DNA of 51,763 bases from an uncultured Paraprevotella sp. (GTDB lineage: Bacteria > Bacteroidota > Bacteroidia > Bacteroidales > Bacteroidaceae). The notes under the pieces are model-generated. The model was given only the letters and a program-made list of their open reading frames with translations. It was not told the origin of the DNA and searched no databases. The stretch covers positions 1 to 51,763 of the forward strand of contig CALULT010000016.1 of the NCBI GenBank assembly GCA_944321565.1, in the 5' to 3' direction. Position numbers and translations under genes: made by a program. Shown here piece by piece: positions 282 through 5,191 of the stretch. How positions within the stretch are numbered: the stretch's first letter is position 1; the number at the start of each line of letters is the position of its first letter.

Positions 282-1100
282 TTACCCGTTTCTATTTGCC
301 CCGCGCCGCGCCGTGGCGGCCACGACCCATATCCCGGCCTCGTAGAGCAACCACATCGGCAGGGCCACGAGGAGGAGCGTGAAGGCGTCGGACGTGGGAG
401 TGACCACCGCCGCCGCCACCAAGACGGCCACCACCGCATGGCGGCGCCGCCGCCGCATGGAAGCCGCGCGCAACACGCCCAGGCGGGCCAACAGCCAGCA
501 GAGCACGGGCAGCTCGAACACAATGCCCAGCGCGAGGTTCATCGCCAGCAGCGTGTCCATGTAGGATTGCAGGGTGATGGCGTTTTCCACCTCCGCGCTC
601 ACCTGGTAGGTGCCCAGGAAACGGAACGTGAGCGGGAAGACGAGAAAATAGTTCAACGCCGACCCCAGGAGGAACATCGCGTAACCGGCCCCCACCGTGC
701 GAAGGGCGTAGCGCCGCTCGCGGGCGTAAAGGGCGGGCGAAACGAAATGGAAGAGCAGGTAGAGCACGTAGGGCGAGGCGCAAAGCAGGCCGGCGCAGAG
801 CGCCACCTTCATGTGGACGACAAACTGCTCGGCCAGGGCCGTGTTGATGAGCCGCACGGAAAACCCCTCCGGAACCATCCCCTCCGCGCCCAGGGCCGCG
901 CCCAGCTTCTCCAGGAGGCGATAGGTGCAGAAACCGTCGTCCTTCGGCGCGAGCACGATGCGGAAAAGCCCGTCCTTGAAGCAGAAAGCCGCCAGCGCGC
1001 ACAGCACCGTGGCGGCGGCCGCCTTCAAGAGGCAGCCGCGCAGGGCGTCGAGGTGGTCCCAGAACGTTCCCTCCGCCCCCTCTCTTTCAGGACTTCCCAT
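282..1100 (-). CDS. tatC: Sec-independent protein translocase TatC
   Basis: TatC is the polytopic receptor of the twin-arginine pathway. It recognises Tat signal peptides and assembles with TatA to move folded, cofactor-bearing proteins across the inner membrane. The 272-residue product has the N-terminal family motif as HLDALR near residue 17, in place of the E. coli HLxELR, so the usual Glu is absent and an Asp sits one position earlier. The loop motif SPALYARER keeps the second conserved Glu. About six hydrophobic segments follow. The start overlaps the 3' end of tatA by 14 bp, which suggests translational coupling. It is the last gene of an operon that also encodes two apparent Tat clients. 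Confidence 0.95.
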   Translation of the reverse strand: MGSPEREGAEGTFWDHLDALRGCLLKAAAATVLCALAAFCFKDGLFRIVLAPKDDGFCTYRLLEKLGAALGAEGMVPEGFSVRLINTALAEQFVVHMKVALCAGLLCASPYVLYLLFHFVSPALYARERRYALRTVGAGYAMFLLGSALNYFLVFPLTFRFLGTYQVSAEVENAITLQSYMDTLLAMNLALGIVFELPVLCWLLARLGVLRAASMRRRRRHAVVAVLVAAAVVTPTSDAFTLLLVALPMWLLYEAGIWVVAATARRGANRNG

Positions 1101-1302
1101 CCTTCGCCTGCCCTTCCTCCGCGGCCTGTTCCTTCTTGTCCCCGGCGGCCGTGCCCGGGCCTTCCACGCCGTTCATGCCGTCGCGGAAACTTTTCACGCC
1201 CCGTCCCAGCCCCCTCATCAGTTCGGGTATCTTCTTCCCGCCGAACAGCAGCAGGACGACGAGCAGGATGAGCAGGAGCTCTTGCGTTCCTATTCCAAAC
1301 AT
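1087..1302 (-). CDS. tatA: Twin-arginine translocase subunit TatA/E
   Basis: The 71-residue protein has the TatA layout: a short N-terminus, one hydrophobic helix (about residues 6-20), the conserved FGGKKIPEL hinge, an amphipathic helix to about residue 40, and a charged, Gly/Ala/Glu-rich tail. TatA oligomerises on demand to form the translocation path. No TatB is seen, so this looks like a minimal TatAC system in which one TatA-type protein does both jobs, as is usual in Bacteroidetes. It lies 11 bp after the ECF S-component gene and overlaps tatC. Confidence 0.95.
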   Translation of the reverse strand: MFGIGTQELLLILLVVLLLFGGKKIPELMRGLGRGVKSFRDGMNGVEGPGTAAGDKKEQAAEEGQAKDGKS

Positions 1303-1313
1303 CAGCTTATGCC

Positions 1314-1826
1314 TTATTTATATATGACGTACTTAATCAACAAATAACCACCCACGACTTGCAAGGCCATGCCCGGCAACCCCATGCGGAAATCCTGCGC
1401 GGCCAGGAGGAAGTCGCCCGACATCAGCCATTCGCCCAACGTGCCCGCGAGCTGGTAGGACAACACCACGCCCGTCAACAGCCACAAGCCCACCCGGCGG
1501 AAACGGGCGGCGGCATAGCCTGCGGCCACGGCCAGCAACACGGACTTCAGCAGGATGGCCGGCAGGACGGCAGGAGCCGGCATGCCGAACATCCAGGAAT
1601 TGGCCAGCGGGGAAAGCACCGCCGTGAGCAACCCCACTCGCCAACCGTACTTGTAGGCACCGACCAAGGTGAAGAAATAAATCGGCAACCACGTCATCCC
1701 GCCCTGCGGCACCTGGTGGCACAATTGCGGCAACAACACGTTGCCCGCCACGAACAACGCGGCAATCGCGTAGGTCCGCTTCTCCGCATAACCCGGAGCA
1801 TAAAGTTTCACACTCGTTGTTTCCAT
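1314..1826 (-). CDS. ECF transporter S component (substrate-binding membrane subunit)
   Basis: A 170-residue, very hydrophobic protein with five or six predicted membrane helices and few charged residues outside a short N-terminus. Size and pattern match the S components of energy-coupling factor transporters, which bind a vitamin or metal and work with a shared EcfT and ATPases. Those partners are not in the window, so it would have to use modules encoded elsewhere. The substrate cannot be read from the sequence. It is embedded between DUF1893 and tatA with gaps of 28 and 11 bp, so it is almost certainly co-transcribed with them. Confidence 0.7.
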   Translation of the reverse strand: METTSVKLYAPGYAEKRTYAIAALFVAGNVLLPQLCHQVPQGGMTWLPIYFFTLVGAYKYGWRVGLLTAVLSPLANSWMFGMPAPAVLPAILLKSVLLAVAAGYAAARFRRVGLWLLTGVVLSYQLAGTLGEWLMSGDFLLAAQDFRMGLPGMALQVVGGYLLIKYVIYK

Positions 1827-1854: not shown

Positions 1855-2280
1855 CTATTTCTCCGCATCGGCCGCCCCGCCCCGTTTCATGAATCTGCGA
1901 ATCAAGGGGAGGCACTCTTCCGCCGTGGCCACGTCGCGGCACAACGTCTCCACCGGACACCAACCATCCCCCGCACGGTTGCGTATGGCCGGCACCAGCA
2001 CCCCGTATGCCACCGGGATGCCTGCCGCCCGGAACATTCCAAGCGCCGGCTGGCTCATCACGTCGGCATACACCTCCCCGACACCGCCCGACACCATGAG
2101 TGCCGCAGCCCCCTTGCCCACGACCTTGTCGGCCACCTCCGCGCCGCGGAGCAACTGCGGGTGCGCCAGCAACAGCTCATACAAGTCTGCCACGCCATGT
2201 TGTTCGTAAGTGTGCACATTCCCGTTCCTCAGCACCAGCGAGCATTCGCTGCGATGCAACAAATCAATCAAATCCTGCAT
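1855..2280 (-). CDS. DUF1893 domain protein
   Basis: A 141-residue soluble protein of the DUF1893 family, recognised by the central DKVVGKGAAALM segment (about residues 51-62) and by Cys residues near residues 107 and 114. The family is thought to have a cytidine-deaminase-like fold; its reaction is not established. The start is 6 bp after the stop of the aldo/keto reductase, so the two are co-transcribed. Linkage with a ferredoxin-type aldo/keto reductase and an ECF S component is, from memory, common in Bacteroides and hints at a shared cofactor or redox role. That is an inference. Confidence 0.75.
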   Translation of the reverse strand: MQDLIDLLHRSECSLVLRNGNVHTYEQHGVADLYELLLAHPQLLRGAEVADKVVGKGAAALMVSGGVGEVYADVMSQPALGMFRAAGIPVAYGVLVPAIRNRAGDGWCPVETLCRDVATAEECLPLIRRFMKRGGAADAEK

Positions 2281-2286
2281 GGCCCC

Positions 2287-3678
2287 TTATAACGTTTCTT
2301 GTTTCAGTTTCTCCACGTAGGCGTCGATACGGTGCAGCTCCTTGGGAATGTCGATGCCTTGCGGGCAATGCGGGTTACACTGCCCGCATCCCGTGCAGTG
2401 GTCGGCCTGCCGCAACTTGGGCACACTGCGGTCGTATCCCACAAGGTAAATCCTGCGGGCTTTTCGATAACCCTCGCTCTGTGCGCTTTGCGGGATGTTT
2501 CCCTCGTTCAGGCATTTGTTGTAGTGCAACAAGATAGCCGGGATGTCAATGCCGTAGGGACACGGCATGCAATATTTGCAATCGTTGCAGGGAATCGTGT
2601 CGAACTCCATCATCAGCTTCGCCGTGTCGATCAGGAACTGGAATTCCTCTTCCGACAAGGGCTTAAGCGGGGAATACGTGCGCAGGTTGTCCTGCAAGTG
2701 TTCCATGCGCGTCATGCCGCTCAGCACGGTGAGCACCCCGGGGAAACTTCCCGCAAAGCGGAAAGCCCACGAGGCCACGCTCTGCGCCGGTTCGCGTTGT
2801 TTGAGCCGCGCCACGATGTTGTCCGGCACATTGGAAAGCCGGCCGCCCAACAAGGGTTCCATGATGATGGCGGGGATGTTCCGTTTAGCCAACTCGCCAT
2901 ACAGATATTCCGCGTCGGTGTTGTTCGCATTGATTTGCTTGGCATGCCGCCAGTCCAGGTAATTCAACTGGATTTGCACGAAGTCCCACTTGAACTCGTC
3001 ATGACGCGACAGCAGGTAGTCGAACACCCGGATATCCCCATGATACGAAAAGCCCAGATTGCGGATGCGCCCGGCCTCGCGTTCCTTCAAGAGGAAATCC
3101 ACCATCCCGTTGTCGAAGAAACGGGCATTGAGCAGCCCCATGCCGTCGCCCCCGCCCACGGAATGCAACAGATAATAGTCGATGCAGTCCACCTGCATTT
3201 CCTCGAACGACTTGCGATACATGGCAATGGAATTCTCGCGCGTGAAGTTCGAGAAATTGGAAAGCTTGGTAGCCACGAAATAAGAGTCCCTGGGATGGCG
3301 GCTCAAGGCGATGCCCGTGGCACGTTCCGAAAGGCCCCGGCAATAGGCGGGCGACGTGTCGAAATAGTTCACCCCGTGCGCCATGGCGTAATCCACCAGT
3401 TCGTTCACCATCTCCTGGTCTATCTCTCCCCTCTTTTCCCGGAAAGGCAGGCGCATCATGCCGAAGCCCAGGAGCGACACCTTGTCGCCCGAGGTGGGAT
3501 TGTCGCGCATGGTCATGCCGCCTTCGGGCACCTCGCCCGCACCTGTCCCGGAAACCGACGAGCCGCTTTTCGTCCCGCAACCATAGAGGGCTGCCGAAGT
3601 GGCCGCCGCGCCAGCCCCGAGGAGCTTCAGAAACTTGCGGCGCCCCATTCCTTTATGTTGATGCTCTTTTTGTTCCAT
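2287..3678 (-). CDS. Tat-signal aldo/keto reductase with C-terminal ferredoxin clusters
   Basis: A 463-residue oxidoreductase. Residues 12-34 form a twin-arginine signal (GRRKFLK followed by a weakly hydrophobic Ala/Gly stretch) that ends in LYGC, a possible lipobox, so the protein may be a Tat-exported lipoprotein. The aldo/keto reductase barrel follows with the expected Asp (YFDTSPAY), Tyr, Lys (VATKLS) and His (YYLLHS). The C-terminus has two cysteine clusters, CNDCKYCMPCP and CTGCGQCNPHCP, which should bind [4Fe-4S] centres. Cluster-bearing proteins fold before export, which fits Tat use. The next gene upstream encodes a NapH/NapG-like electron carrier and tatA/tatC lie downstream in the same operon. 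Substrate unknown. Confidence 0.9.
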   Translation of the reverse strand: MEQKEHQHKGMGRRKFLKLLGAGAAATSAALYGCGTKSGSSVSGTGAGEVPEGGMTMRDNPTSGDKVSLLGFGMMRLPFREKRGEIDQEMVNELVDYAMAHGVNYFDTSPAYCRGLSERATGIALSRHPRDSYFVATKLSNFSNFTRENSIAMYRKSFEEMQVDCIDYYLLHSVGGGDGMGLLNARFFDNGMVDFLLKEREAGRIRNLGFSYHGDIRVFDYLLSRHDEFKWDFVQIQLNYLDWRHAKQINANNTDAEYLYGELAKRNIPAIIMEPLLGGRLSNVPDNIVARLKQREPAQSVASWAFRFAGSFPGVLTVLSGMTRMEHLQDNLRTYSPLKPLSEEEFQFLIDTAKLMMEFDTIPCNDCKYCMPCPYGIDIPAILLHYNKCLNEGNIPQSAQSEGYRKARRIYLVGYDRSVPKLRQADHCTGCGQCNPHCPQGIDIPKELHRIDAYVEKLKQETL

Positions 3679-3697: not shown

Positions 3698-5191
3698 CTA
3701 AATCAAACTGTGGACTTCATGTCCTTCCACATGGATCGCGCTGAACGGACGAGCCGGACACAAATGCTCGCAGGCGCCACAACCGATGCAACGCTCCTCG
3801 TTCACGACCGGCAACTTCGGCGAATCGGGCTTCCCCGCCACCGACGGCACCATCAAAATGGCTCCCGAAGGACAATGGCGGGCACAGTTGCCACACTCCA
3901 CCCCATCGGTGTTCACGATGCAGTTTTCCGCATGGAACACGGCATGGCCTATCTGCACGGAAGACTTGTCGGGCACCGTGATGGGGCGTATCGCCCCCGT
4001 CGGGCACACTTCGGAACACCGCACACACTCCGGACGGCAATAGCCCCGCTCGTAGGACATCTCGGGCTGCATCCATGTGCCTAAAGCGGAAGAGGGACGC
4101 AACACCCCGTTCGGACATGCCGACACACACAGCTGGCAAGCCGTGCAATGCGCCGTGAAGTGGCGCAAACCCTTCGCCCCGGCAGGCTTCAAAGGCACTT
4201 TCCGTTCCGGCACCTTTTTTTCTTCTATCGCAGCCAACCCGCCATCCACCTTTTTCTCCTGTGCCCGCACCCACGTGCCGACGGCAAAAAGCGAGGCCAC
4301 CGTCAGGAAACTGCGGCGCGCACCATCCGGCTGCCTGGAGGATGATGCCTCCTGCACCCCAACCGTCTTCGGATGTGCATATCGGATGGCGCCTTTCGGG
4401 CATTTGGCGATGCAATCCATGCAGGCCACACAACGGCTGTAGTCTATCCGGCGGGCCTTGATGTCGATGCAAGAAGACTTGCAATTGCGCTCGCAAAGTT
4501 TGCAATTGACGCACTTCGACGTGTCGATGACCGGCCTGAGCCACGCATAACGCGACAGGAAACCCAGCACGGTCCCCACCGGGCATATCGTGTTGCAATA
4601 GGTACGCCCGTTGCGCCAGGCCAGCACCGCCAGCACGGCAAACGTAGCCACCGCCACGACAAAAGTCGAAAGCCCCTTCATCCACACGTCCGTCTCATAA
4701 AAAGCATAGCTGTCCGCACGTTCCGCCCAATAAGCCAAAAGATTATTGCCCCAACGGTAGAGGGGGGCAAACAGGTTGGAGGCCATGCGCCCATACGCGC
4801 TATAAGGCTCCACCAATCCGGCCCAACTGATGAAACCCGCCACGGAAGCCACGACGAAAACCACCAGCACGGCATAGCGCAACCATGACAACGCCGGGGA
4901 ATAGCGGAAACGGTTCTTCTTGAACCTCCCGCCAAGGCGCGACGCCACATCCTGGAACACGCCCAACGGACATATCACGGAACAATACACCCGGCCGCAC
5001 AGCAAGGTCAGCAACACCAACCCCGCCACGACGGCCACGTTCAAAGCCAACACCGCAGGCACGAACTGAATCTTGGCCATCCAGCCAAACCACCCGTGCC
5101 ACACGCCCGCAAAGTCGAGGAACAACATCGTGACCGACACGAAAAAGACGGCGGCCACCCATTGCCTGATTCTTTTTAATACCATAACCAC
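3698..5191 (-). CDS. NapH-NapG-like iron-sulfur fusion protein with internal twin-arginine motif
   Basis: A 497-residue protein in two halves. Residues 1-220 form a four-helix NapH-like membrane domain with the paired motifs CGRVYCSVICP (65-75) and YCNTICP (198-204), followed by cytoplasmic ferredoxin motifs at 227-241 and 254-264. Residues 291-310 read ARRSFLTV plus a hydrophobic stretch ending in RAQ, which is a good twin-arginine signal in mid-protein. Residues 340-480 carry four further clusters in the order found in NapG (around 349-359, 385-396, 424-440, 468-478). It should pass electrons from the quinone pool to the periplasmic side. The C-terminal half seems to need Tat after Sec inserts the first half. 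First gene of the Tat operon. Confidence 0.85.
   Translation of the reverse strand: MVMVLKRIRQWVAAVFFVSVTMLFLDFAGVWHGWFGWMAKIQFVPAVLALNVAVVAGLVLLTLLCGRVYCSVICPLGVFQDVASRLGGRFKKNRFRYSPALSWLRYAVLVVFVVASVAGFISWAGLVEPYSAYGRMASNLFAPLYRWGNNLLAYWAERADSYAFYETDVWMKGLSTFVVAVATFAVLAVLAWRNGRTYCNTICPVGTVLGFLSRYAWLRPVIDTSKCVNCKLCERNCKSSCIDIKARRIDYSRCVACMDCIAKCPKGAIRYAHPKTVGVQEASSSRQPDGARRSFLTVASLFAVGTWVRAQEKKVDGGLAAIEEKKVPERKVPLKPAGAKGLRHFTAHCTACQLCVSACPNGVLRPSSALGTWMQPEMSYERGYCRPECVRCSEVCPTGAIRPITVPDKSSVQIGHAVFHAENCIVNTDGVECGNCARHCPSGAILMVPSVAGKPDSPKLPVVNEERCIGCGACEHLCPARPFSAIHVEGHEVHSLI

Follow-up and report, generated by a model that had tools for sequence, protein, structure and literature searches.

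Gene content of the locus and architecture of the fusion protein

The window, which is the whole 51,763-nucleotide stretch of Paraprevotella DNA that was analyzed, contained an open reading frame (ORF) for a NapH-NapG-type fusion polyferredoxin, followed 3' on the same strand by genes for an aldo/keto reductase, a DUF1893 protein, an ECF-like membrane protein, TatA and TatC, in that order (Table 1). The gaps along the string, counted from the fusion gene, were 19, 6, 28 and 11 bp, and the last two genes overlapped by 14 nt; from this close spacing we infer that the fusion gene through tatC would be co-transcribed. A first-pass annotation had placed the fusion ORF at 3698..5191. The reading frame proved real, but its strand should be given as minus, and the ATG at 5185 is a likelier start than the GTG at 5191. 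Residue numbers given here are counted from the ATG; those of the first-pass annotation were offset by 2 owing to the GTG start.

Table 1. Features of the fusion gene and of the genes that follow it (window coordinates).
Feature	Coordinates	Strand	Details
NapH-NapG-type fusion polyferredoxin	3698..5185	-	495 aa from ATG; alternative GTG at 5191
NapH-like half, approximately residues 1-285	4331..5185	-	predicted to have four membrane segments; carries two CX3CP motifs and, on the cytosolic side, two 4Fe-4S motifs
Internal Tat signal of the fusion (predicted)	4259..4318	-	R290-R291, weak 15-residue uncharged stretch (292-306), A308↓Q309
NapG-like half as predicted after cleavage, Q309-I495 (187 aa)	3701..4261	-	four 4Fe-4S motifs
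Aldo/keto reductase	2287..3678	-	N-terminal Tat signal (RRKFLK), lipobox LYGC, two C-terminal 4Fe-4S motifs
DUF1893 (TM1506) protein	1855..2280	-	starts 6 bp past the reductase gene
ECF-transporter S-component-like membrane protein	1314..1826	-	29.5 bits, just below the Pfam cut-off of 30.7
tatA	1087..1302	-	PF02416, E 6.7e-14
tatC	282..1100	-	sole TatC match in the genome; 14-nt overlap with tatA

Pfam and NCBIfam profiles placed Fer4_5 and Fer4-type 4Fe-4S domains in the fusion ORF, and the profile search also gave NapH/MauN-like and NapG/MauM-like matches that were far under the curated cut-offs. The NapH-like half carried CX3CP motifs at C68/C72 and C197/C201 and cytosolic-side 4Fe-4S motifs at C225-C235 and C252-C262. 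The twin arginine (R290-R291) lay within GARRSFLTVASLFAVGTWVRAQEKK, and the NapG-side motifs were found at C347-C357, C383-C394, C422-C438 and C466-C476. In the predicted topology, the four membrane segments and the cytosolic Fe-S motifs all precede the twin arginine. The cysteines of all six 4Fe-4S motifs and of both CX3CP motifs, together with R291, were invariant in an alignment of 78 sequences (A2), including the 16 cysteines of the four C-terminal motifs (78/78). These profiles and invariant cysteines confirmed the earlier description of a NapH-like four-helix half with ferredoxin motifs joined to a NapG-like half with four Fe-S motifs. The architecture of the protein, the conservation of its motifs, its gene neighbors and the occurrence of tatC in every fusion-bearing genome tested are established at the level of sequence.

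An AlphaFold2 model built from 78 sequences had a mean pLDDT of 78.7 and contained long helices in the NapH half, among others at residues 2-23, 50-63, 100-116 and 172-192. The model consisted of two better-predicted halves; residues 274-318 fell under pLDDT 50 and formed no fifth membrane helix. A PDB sequence search with the fusion returned ferredoxin-type Fe-S proteins, 29 of them at E ≤ 1e-6, and a PDB fold search returned no match at E ≤ 0.001.

The adjoining reductase and the candidate Tat clients of the genome

Gene neighborhoods were compared at 80 named fusion loci with flanks of up to 8 kb, many of which were ended by contig ends. A reductase match (at least 300 aa, E ≤ 1e-20) was present at 76 of these 80 loci; no reductase of this kind was found at L070, L129 or L140, and only a 24%-identical one at L114. 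The twin arginine was retained in 75 of the 76 reductases and was replaced by RK in that of L127. Residues D107, Y112, K138 and H172, which we take to be the aldo/keto reductase catalytic tetrad, were invariant in 77 aligned reductase sequences. At E ≤ 1e-6, tatA and tatC were both present at 16 of the 80 loci, downstream of the fusion gene at 12 and upstream at 4. At the same threshold, DUF1893 was found at 28 loci and the ECF-like gene at 28. In the open-access literature, no paper turned up that describes either a fusion-reductase-tatAC operon or a Bacteroidetes Tat signal that is both internal and cleaved.

The genome (99% complete) gave one TatC match and was scanned for further proteins that might use it. 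The single match to TIGR01409 over the cut-off was the reductase, and one weak match fell in a frame that lacks a credible Tat signal; PF10518 found the reductase site under its cut-off. A DNA pattern of the RRxFLK type matched 12 times, compared with 24 for the reversed control, and among the 12 only the match in the reductase was N-terminal and followed by a hydrophobic stretch. No Tat clients besides the fusion and the reductase were thus found in the genome with the Tat HMMs and the RRxFLK-type pattern. Because the internal signal of the fusion itself escapes these scans, further clients are possible. As a simple test bed, the locus would offer a translocase with two clients, as far as the scans see, in one gene string.

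Co-occurrence of the fusion and TatC

In 296 genomes of the order with a completeness of at least 95%, the fusion (E ≤ 1e-80) was found in 143 and TatC (E ≤ 1e-10) in 251. Presence in 143 of 296 genomes shows that the fusion is not a product of chance. TatC was detected in all 143 fusion-bearing genomes, compared with 108 of the 153 others (Fisher p ~3e-15, uncorrected for shared ancestry), and all 45 genomes without TatC also lacked the fusion. The 108 genomes of the 296 with TatC and no fusion indicate that Tat has other uses in the order. A search of relatives gave some match at E ≤ 0.001 in 54 of 61 genomes, 36 of which were counted as bearing the fusion; TatC was present in 36/36 of these, and the 9 TatC-negative genomes of this set, several of them incomplete, were without the fusion. 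A sample of the phylum contained 46 fusion-bearing genomes, and TatC was found in 44/44 tested, this test leaving out G000 (tested separately) and the weak match G074.

More than one fusion match per genome (two or three) was seen in G030, G396 and G455. Fusion homologues also occurred on three records listed as plasmids (NZ_OY725888.1, NZ_OY725762.1 and NZ_OY725750.1) from Bacteroides finegoldii and Parabacteroides distasonis. In four relatives (G005, G007, G010 and G016), TatC was matched two or three times, and one match lay within ~6 kb of the fusion on its contig, which hints that some species have a second, dedicated Tat system. TatA and TatC have been reported in seven Bacteroides strains (PMC6281302), in passages that do not mention the fusion protein; Tat terms had no match in PMC10653852.

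Conservation of the internal signal

The internal motif was compared in 111 distinct Bacteroidales sequences, namely those of 30 relatives' loci, 79 distinct sequences of the 80 named loci (L089 duplicated L012 and was dropped) and 2 more. It read RR in 104, KR in 6 and LR in 1; the second arginine was retained in 111/111, RR or KR in 110/111, and phenylalanine stood at +2 in 103/111. Invariance of the internal RR among homologues had been set beforehand as a test, and it held strictly for the second arginine and in 104 of 111 sequences for the pair. The segment behind the twin arginine was weakly hydrophobic and was followed by positive charges (K/R), two features that this kind of targeting needs according to Tooke et al. 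2017. In L026 (G018:C4) the first arginine was lost (NLRSMLTT), a KA↓Q site was kept and TatC was present in the genome.

A putative cleavage site followed this segment. In the window protein, A308↓Q309 combines a small residue at -1 with Gln at +1 after the h-region, which fits the Bacteroidetes Q-rule. Among the 111 sequences, the -1 residue was A, S or G in every case and the +1 residue was Q in 105, E in 5 and K in 1, despite a variable h-region (the residues of L026 and L087 were read by eye, the rest by script). An aliphatic residue and then one more residue preceded A↓Q in nearly every sequence, and the distance from RR to -1 was 17 or 18 in 106 of 110 called sequences. Leucine was the commonest residue at -3 (55/110); in the control Sec-like sites it was second to alanine (11/61), a difference that counts against the site. 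The longest uncharged run after RR had a median of 15 residues (n=111), which is short for a membrane helix. A Hessa-type hydrophobicity sum, calculated for the window protein, was less favorable for the internal segment (7.3) than for TM1-4 (-1.9 to 1.9).

A Q-rule control was run at the 80 named loci. A, G or S followed by Q was found in 61 of 117 non-lipoprotein Sec-signal-like ORFs, compared with 12% of 1377 mature stretches, a rough comparison in which the site was sought in the expected stretch of each ORF. Bochtler et al. 2018 (PMC5837995) reported Gln at +1 in most Bacteroidetes signal peptidase I substrates (mean 71%) and gave Q-values of 77% for Ignavibacterium album and below 9% for most Chlorobi. 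That paper left pyroglutamate on inner-membrane proteins for later testing, and its main text contains no word beginning with Tat or twin. In other classes of the phylum, loci from 25 of 41 fusion-bearing genomes (L146-L170) were examined, plus L176. The same site was found in 22 of the 25 fusions, and there was therefore no clear outgroup without the Q-rule; plasmid records, searched for such an outgroup, yielded only Bacteroides and Parabacteroides. At L176 (G126:C115:6500-10500; region 1248-2649), which is from another class, the stop of a NapH ORF overlapped the start of a separate NapG ORF, and the NapG ORF had its own N-terminal Tat-like signal. This is the one clear natural split of the fusion that was seen. 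In G037, the two matches stop at contig ends and represent no split.

Taken together, the short and weak segment, the conserved A↓Q, the Q-rule control, the gap in the AlphaFold2 model and the L176 split favor cleavage. A cut within the internal Tat signal, at A308↓Q309, is probable and would free the NapG-like subunit. The alternative is that the RR segment, once inserted by Tat, stays as a permanent fifth helix and leaves the NapG domain tethered. This model was put forward for the class by Tooke et al. 2017 (eLife, PMC5449189), whose fusion reporter from the delta-proteobacterium MLMS-1 was recovered in E. coli membranes near its full theoretical mass; that relative therefore appears uncut there. 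The last helix is likewise kept in actinobacterial Rieske proteins, and wide retention of the fusion would be odd if the halves work apart. However, about 15 uncharged residues are few for such a helix, and A↓Q is near-invariant in a phylum in which most signal peptidase I substrates carry Gln at +1. The separate NapG half of L176, with a signal of its own, also speaks against a tethered domain, as does the absence of an AlphaFold2 helix at the internal segment, although the latter is weak evidence because AlphaFold2 often gives low confidence on any signal or linker. A permanent fifth helix is the less likely reading, and cleavage remains the preferred one.

It is far less probable still that Tat plays no part in the export of the C-terminal half, which would then be either cytosolic or carried unfolded by Sec, with an incidental twin arginine. 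The Tat-signal HMMs (TIGR01409, PF10518) did not detect the internal signal of the fusion, L026 has neither RR nor KR, and six sequences have KR. However, the universal second arginine, the frequent phenylalanine at +2, the presence of tatC in every fusion-bearing genome of the order sample and the classical Tat signal on the adjoining reductase all argue against this, and a cytosolic C-terminal half is unlikely on the RR and tatC evidence. The dual Sec/Tat reading of the first-pass annotation was supported by the conservation of RR, by tatC in all 143 genomes and by a weak segment with positive charges behind it, and we are highly confident, from these sequence features, that the fusion is targeted by both pathways. 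A shorter variant was seen at L177 (G029:C3; 1031-4422), where two hydrophobic segments, RRSFLTW and a NapG domain were followed by a reductase and a TatC ORF, possibly another dual-targeted arrangement.

Proposed assembly and electron transfer

In the assembly that we propose, Sec would insert the four NapH-type helices, both cytosolic 4Fe-4S motifs would remain inside, and the short, weakly hydrophobic internal segment would be let go by Sec. Four clusters would be assembled into the C-terminal half before the Tat step. The R290-R291 segment would then be recognized as a Tat signal, and TatA-TatC of the same gene string would carry the folded NapG-like domain over the membrane. Signal peptidase I would probably cut A308↓Q309, so that the NapH-like subunit remains in the membrane and the NapG-like subunit becomes a separate protein, the new N-terminal Gln of which could turn into pyroglutamate. 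The NapH/NapG pair would take electrons from quinol and pass them to the Tat-exported reductase lipoprotein via the two clusters of the latter. Free NADPH is not expected outside the membrane; glucose-fructose oxidoreductase reportedly holds NADP(H), and the reductase may hold it bound in the same manner.

We infer, with differing confidence, that the domain is translocated and cut free, that the reductase is active and is the partner of the fusion, and that electrons run in this direction. The recurrent gene neighborhood points to the reductase as the likely partner of the fusion, and electron flow from quinol outward to the reductase seems somewhat favored. As a whole, a dual-targeted electron-transfer polyprotein that is cut and feeds the co-encoded reductase is the best explanation, and we consider it fairly likely. 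Ordinary NapGH quinol dehydrogenase of a periplasmic nitrate reductase is a very improbable identity: NapH/MauN and NapG/MauM are the closest curated families, but the fusion scored far under their cut-offs (67.9 of 213 bits for TIGR02163 and 55.3 of 234 for NF007013, both NapH; 70.8 of 269 for NF007012 and 65.5 of 178.9 for TIGR00397, both NapG), its recurrent neighbor is the reductase, and NapA had no match at E ≤ 1e-5 in this genome; a nitrate role was rejected because of the unmet cut-offs and the missing NapA match.

More tentatively, and with some doubt, the cut polyprotein may be read as one gene giving a two-subunit electron wire, with Sec, Tat and signal peptidase I acting on one chain. 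This wire would serve a new extracytoplasmic carbonyl reductase, exported folded, perhaps with NADP(H) inside, and recharged via Fe-S clusters rather than free NADPH. In some species, perhaps including this one, Tat as a whole may be devoted to these two clients in one operon.

Comparison with known systems

The first-pass annotation had proposed a Bacteroidetes case of dual targeting. That proposal was supported, but the kind was already known, as Tooke et al. 2017 had tested the class in MLMS-1. They found polytopic polyferredoxins with TATFind and TMHMM, stated that the MLMS-1 polyferredoxin Q1NSB0 is a NapH and NapG fusion, and used MBP and AmiA reporters to show that its membrane region is exported Tat-dependently and inserts without Tat. 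No Bacteroidetes are among the species of their Table 5, and the main text names the phylum a single time, in connection with another family; the online lists behind that work may contain members from Bacteroidetes. Like Q1NSB0, the Bacteroidales fusion joins NapH and NapG, has an RR that immediately precedes a fifth segment of weak hydrophobicity with positive charges behind it, and is predicted to have four extracytoplasmic 4Fe-4S clusters. However, the MLMS-1 segment was predicted to span 22 residues (338-359) and was drawn as a kept fifth helix, whereas the Bacteroidales segment has ~15 uncharged residues. A signal peptidase site was introduced in the MLMS-1 AmiA construct, whereas the Bacteroidales fusion has a natural conserved A↓Q. 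The gene string in which tatAC and a reductase lipoprotein with a Tat signal accompany the fusion belongs to the Bacteroidales protein and is not described for MLMS-1 in the sections of PMC5449189 on that protein.

NapH and NapG of E. coli and Wolinella, as described in PMC5449189, likewise pair a membrane quinol-side partner with a Tat-exported four-cluster ferredoxin. Unlike the fusion, they are separate polypeptides for nitrate respiration; the low NapH/NapG scores and the genome without a NapA match also set the fusion apart. The earlier comparison with actinobacterial Rieske proteins (Sco2149) stands, with early helices inserted by Sec and the last segment by Tat. However, those proteins have a single Rieske domain, two or four helices inserted by Sec and a last helix that is kept, and the Rieske analogy alone covered neither the A↓Q site nor tatAC nor a Tat-exported partner enzyme. 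FbcH of Bradyrhizobium japonicum is a cytochrome b-c1 polyprotein that is cut at an internal Sec signal. It resembles the fusion in that a single gene yields one subunit in the membrane and one exported redox subunit; the division by signal peptidase within the chain that FbcH undergoes is proposed here for the fusion. FbcH uses Sec and haem, whereas the fusion would use Tat and Fe-S. In Bacillus subtilis, the TatAdCd translocase genes lie beside the gene of the client PhoD, as the fusion lies near its translocase genes, but PhoD is a phosphodiesterase and not a polytopic redox protein. We know of no earlier polytopic protein with a Tat signal that is internal and cleavable. What is new here is that an internal cleavage is probable, that the fusion is strictly linked to tatC and that one gene string joins the translocase with its clients.

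If this reading is true, dual Sec/Tat targeting would extend to a protein present in nearly half of the sampled genomes of the order (143/296). Cleavage of an internal Tat signal would be added to it, such that one chain yields a matched pair of redox subunits. It would also point to an uncharacterized extracytoplasmic redox enzyme near the fusion at 76/80 named loci.
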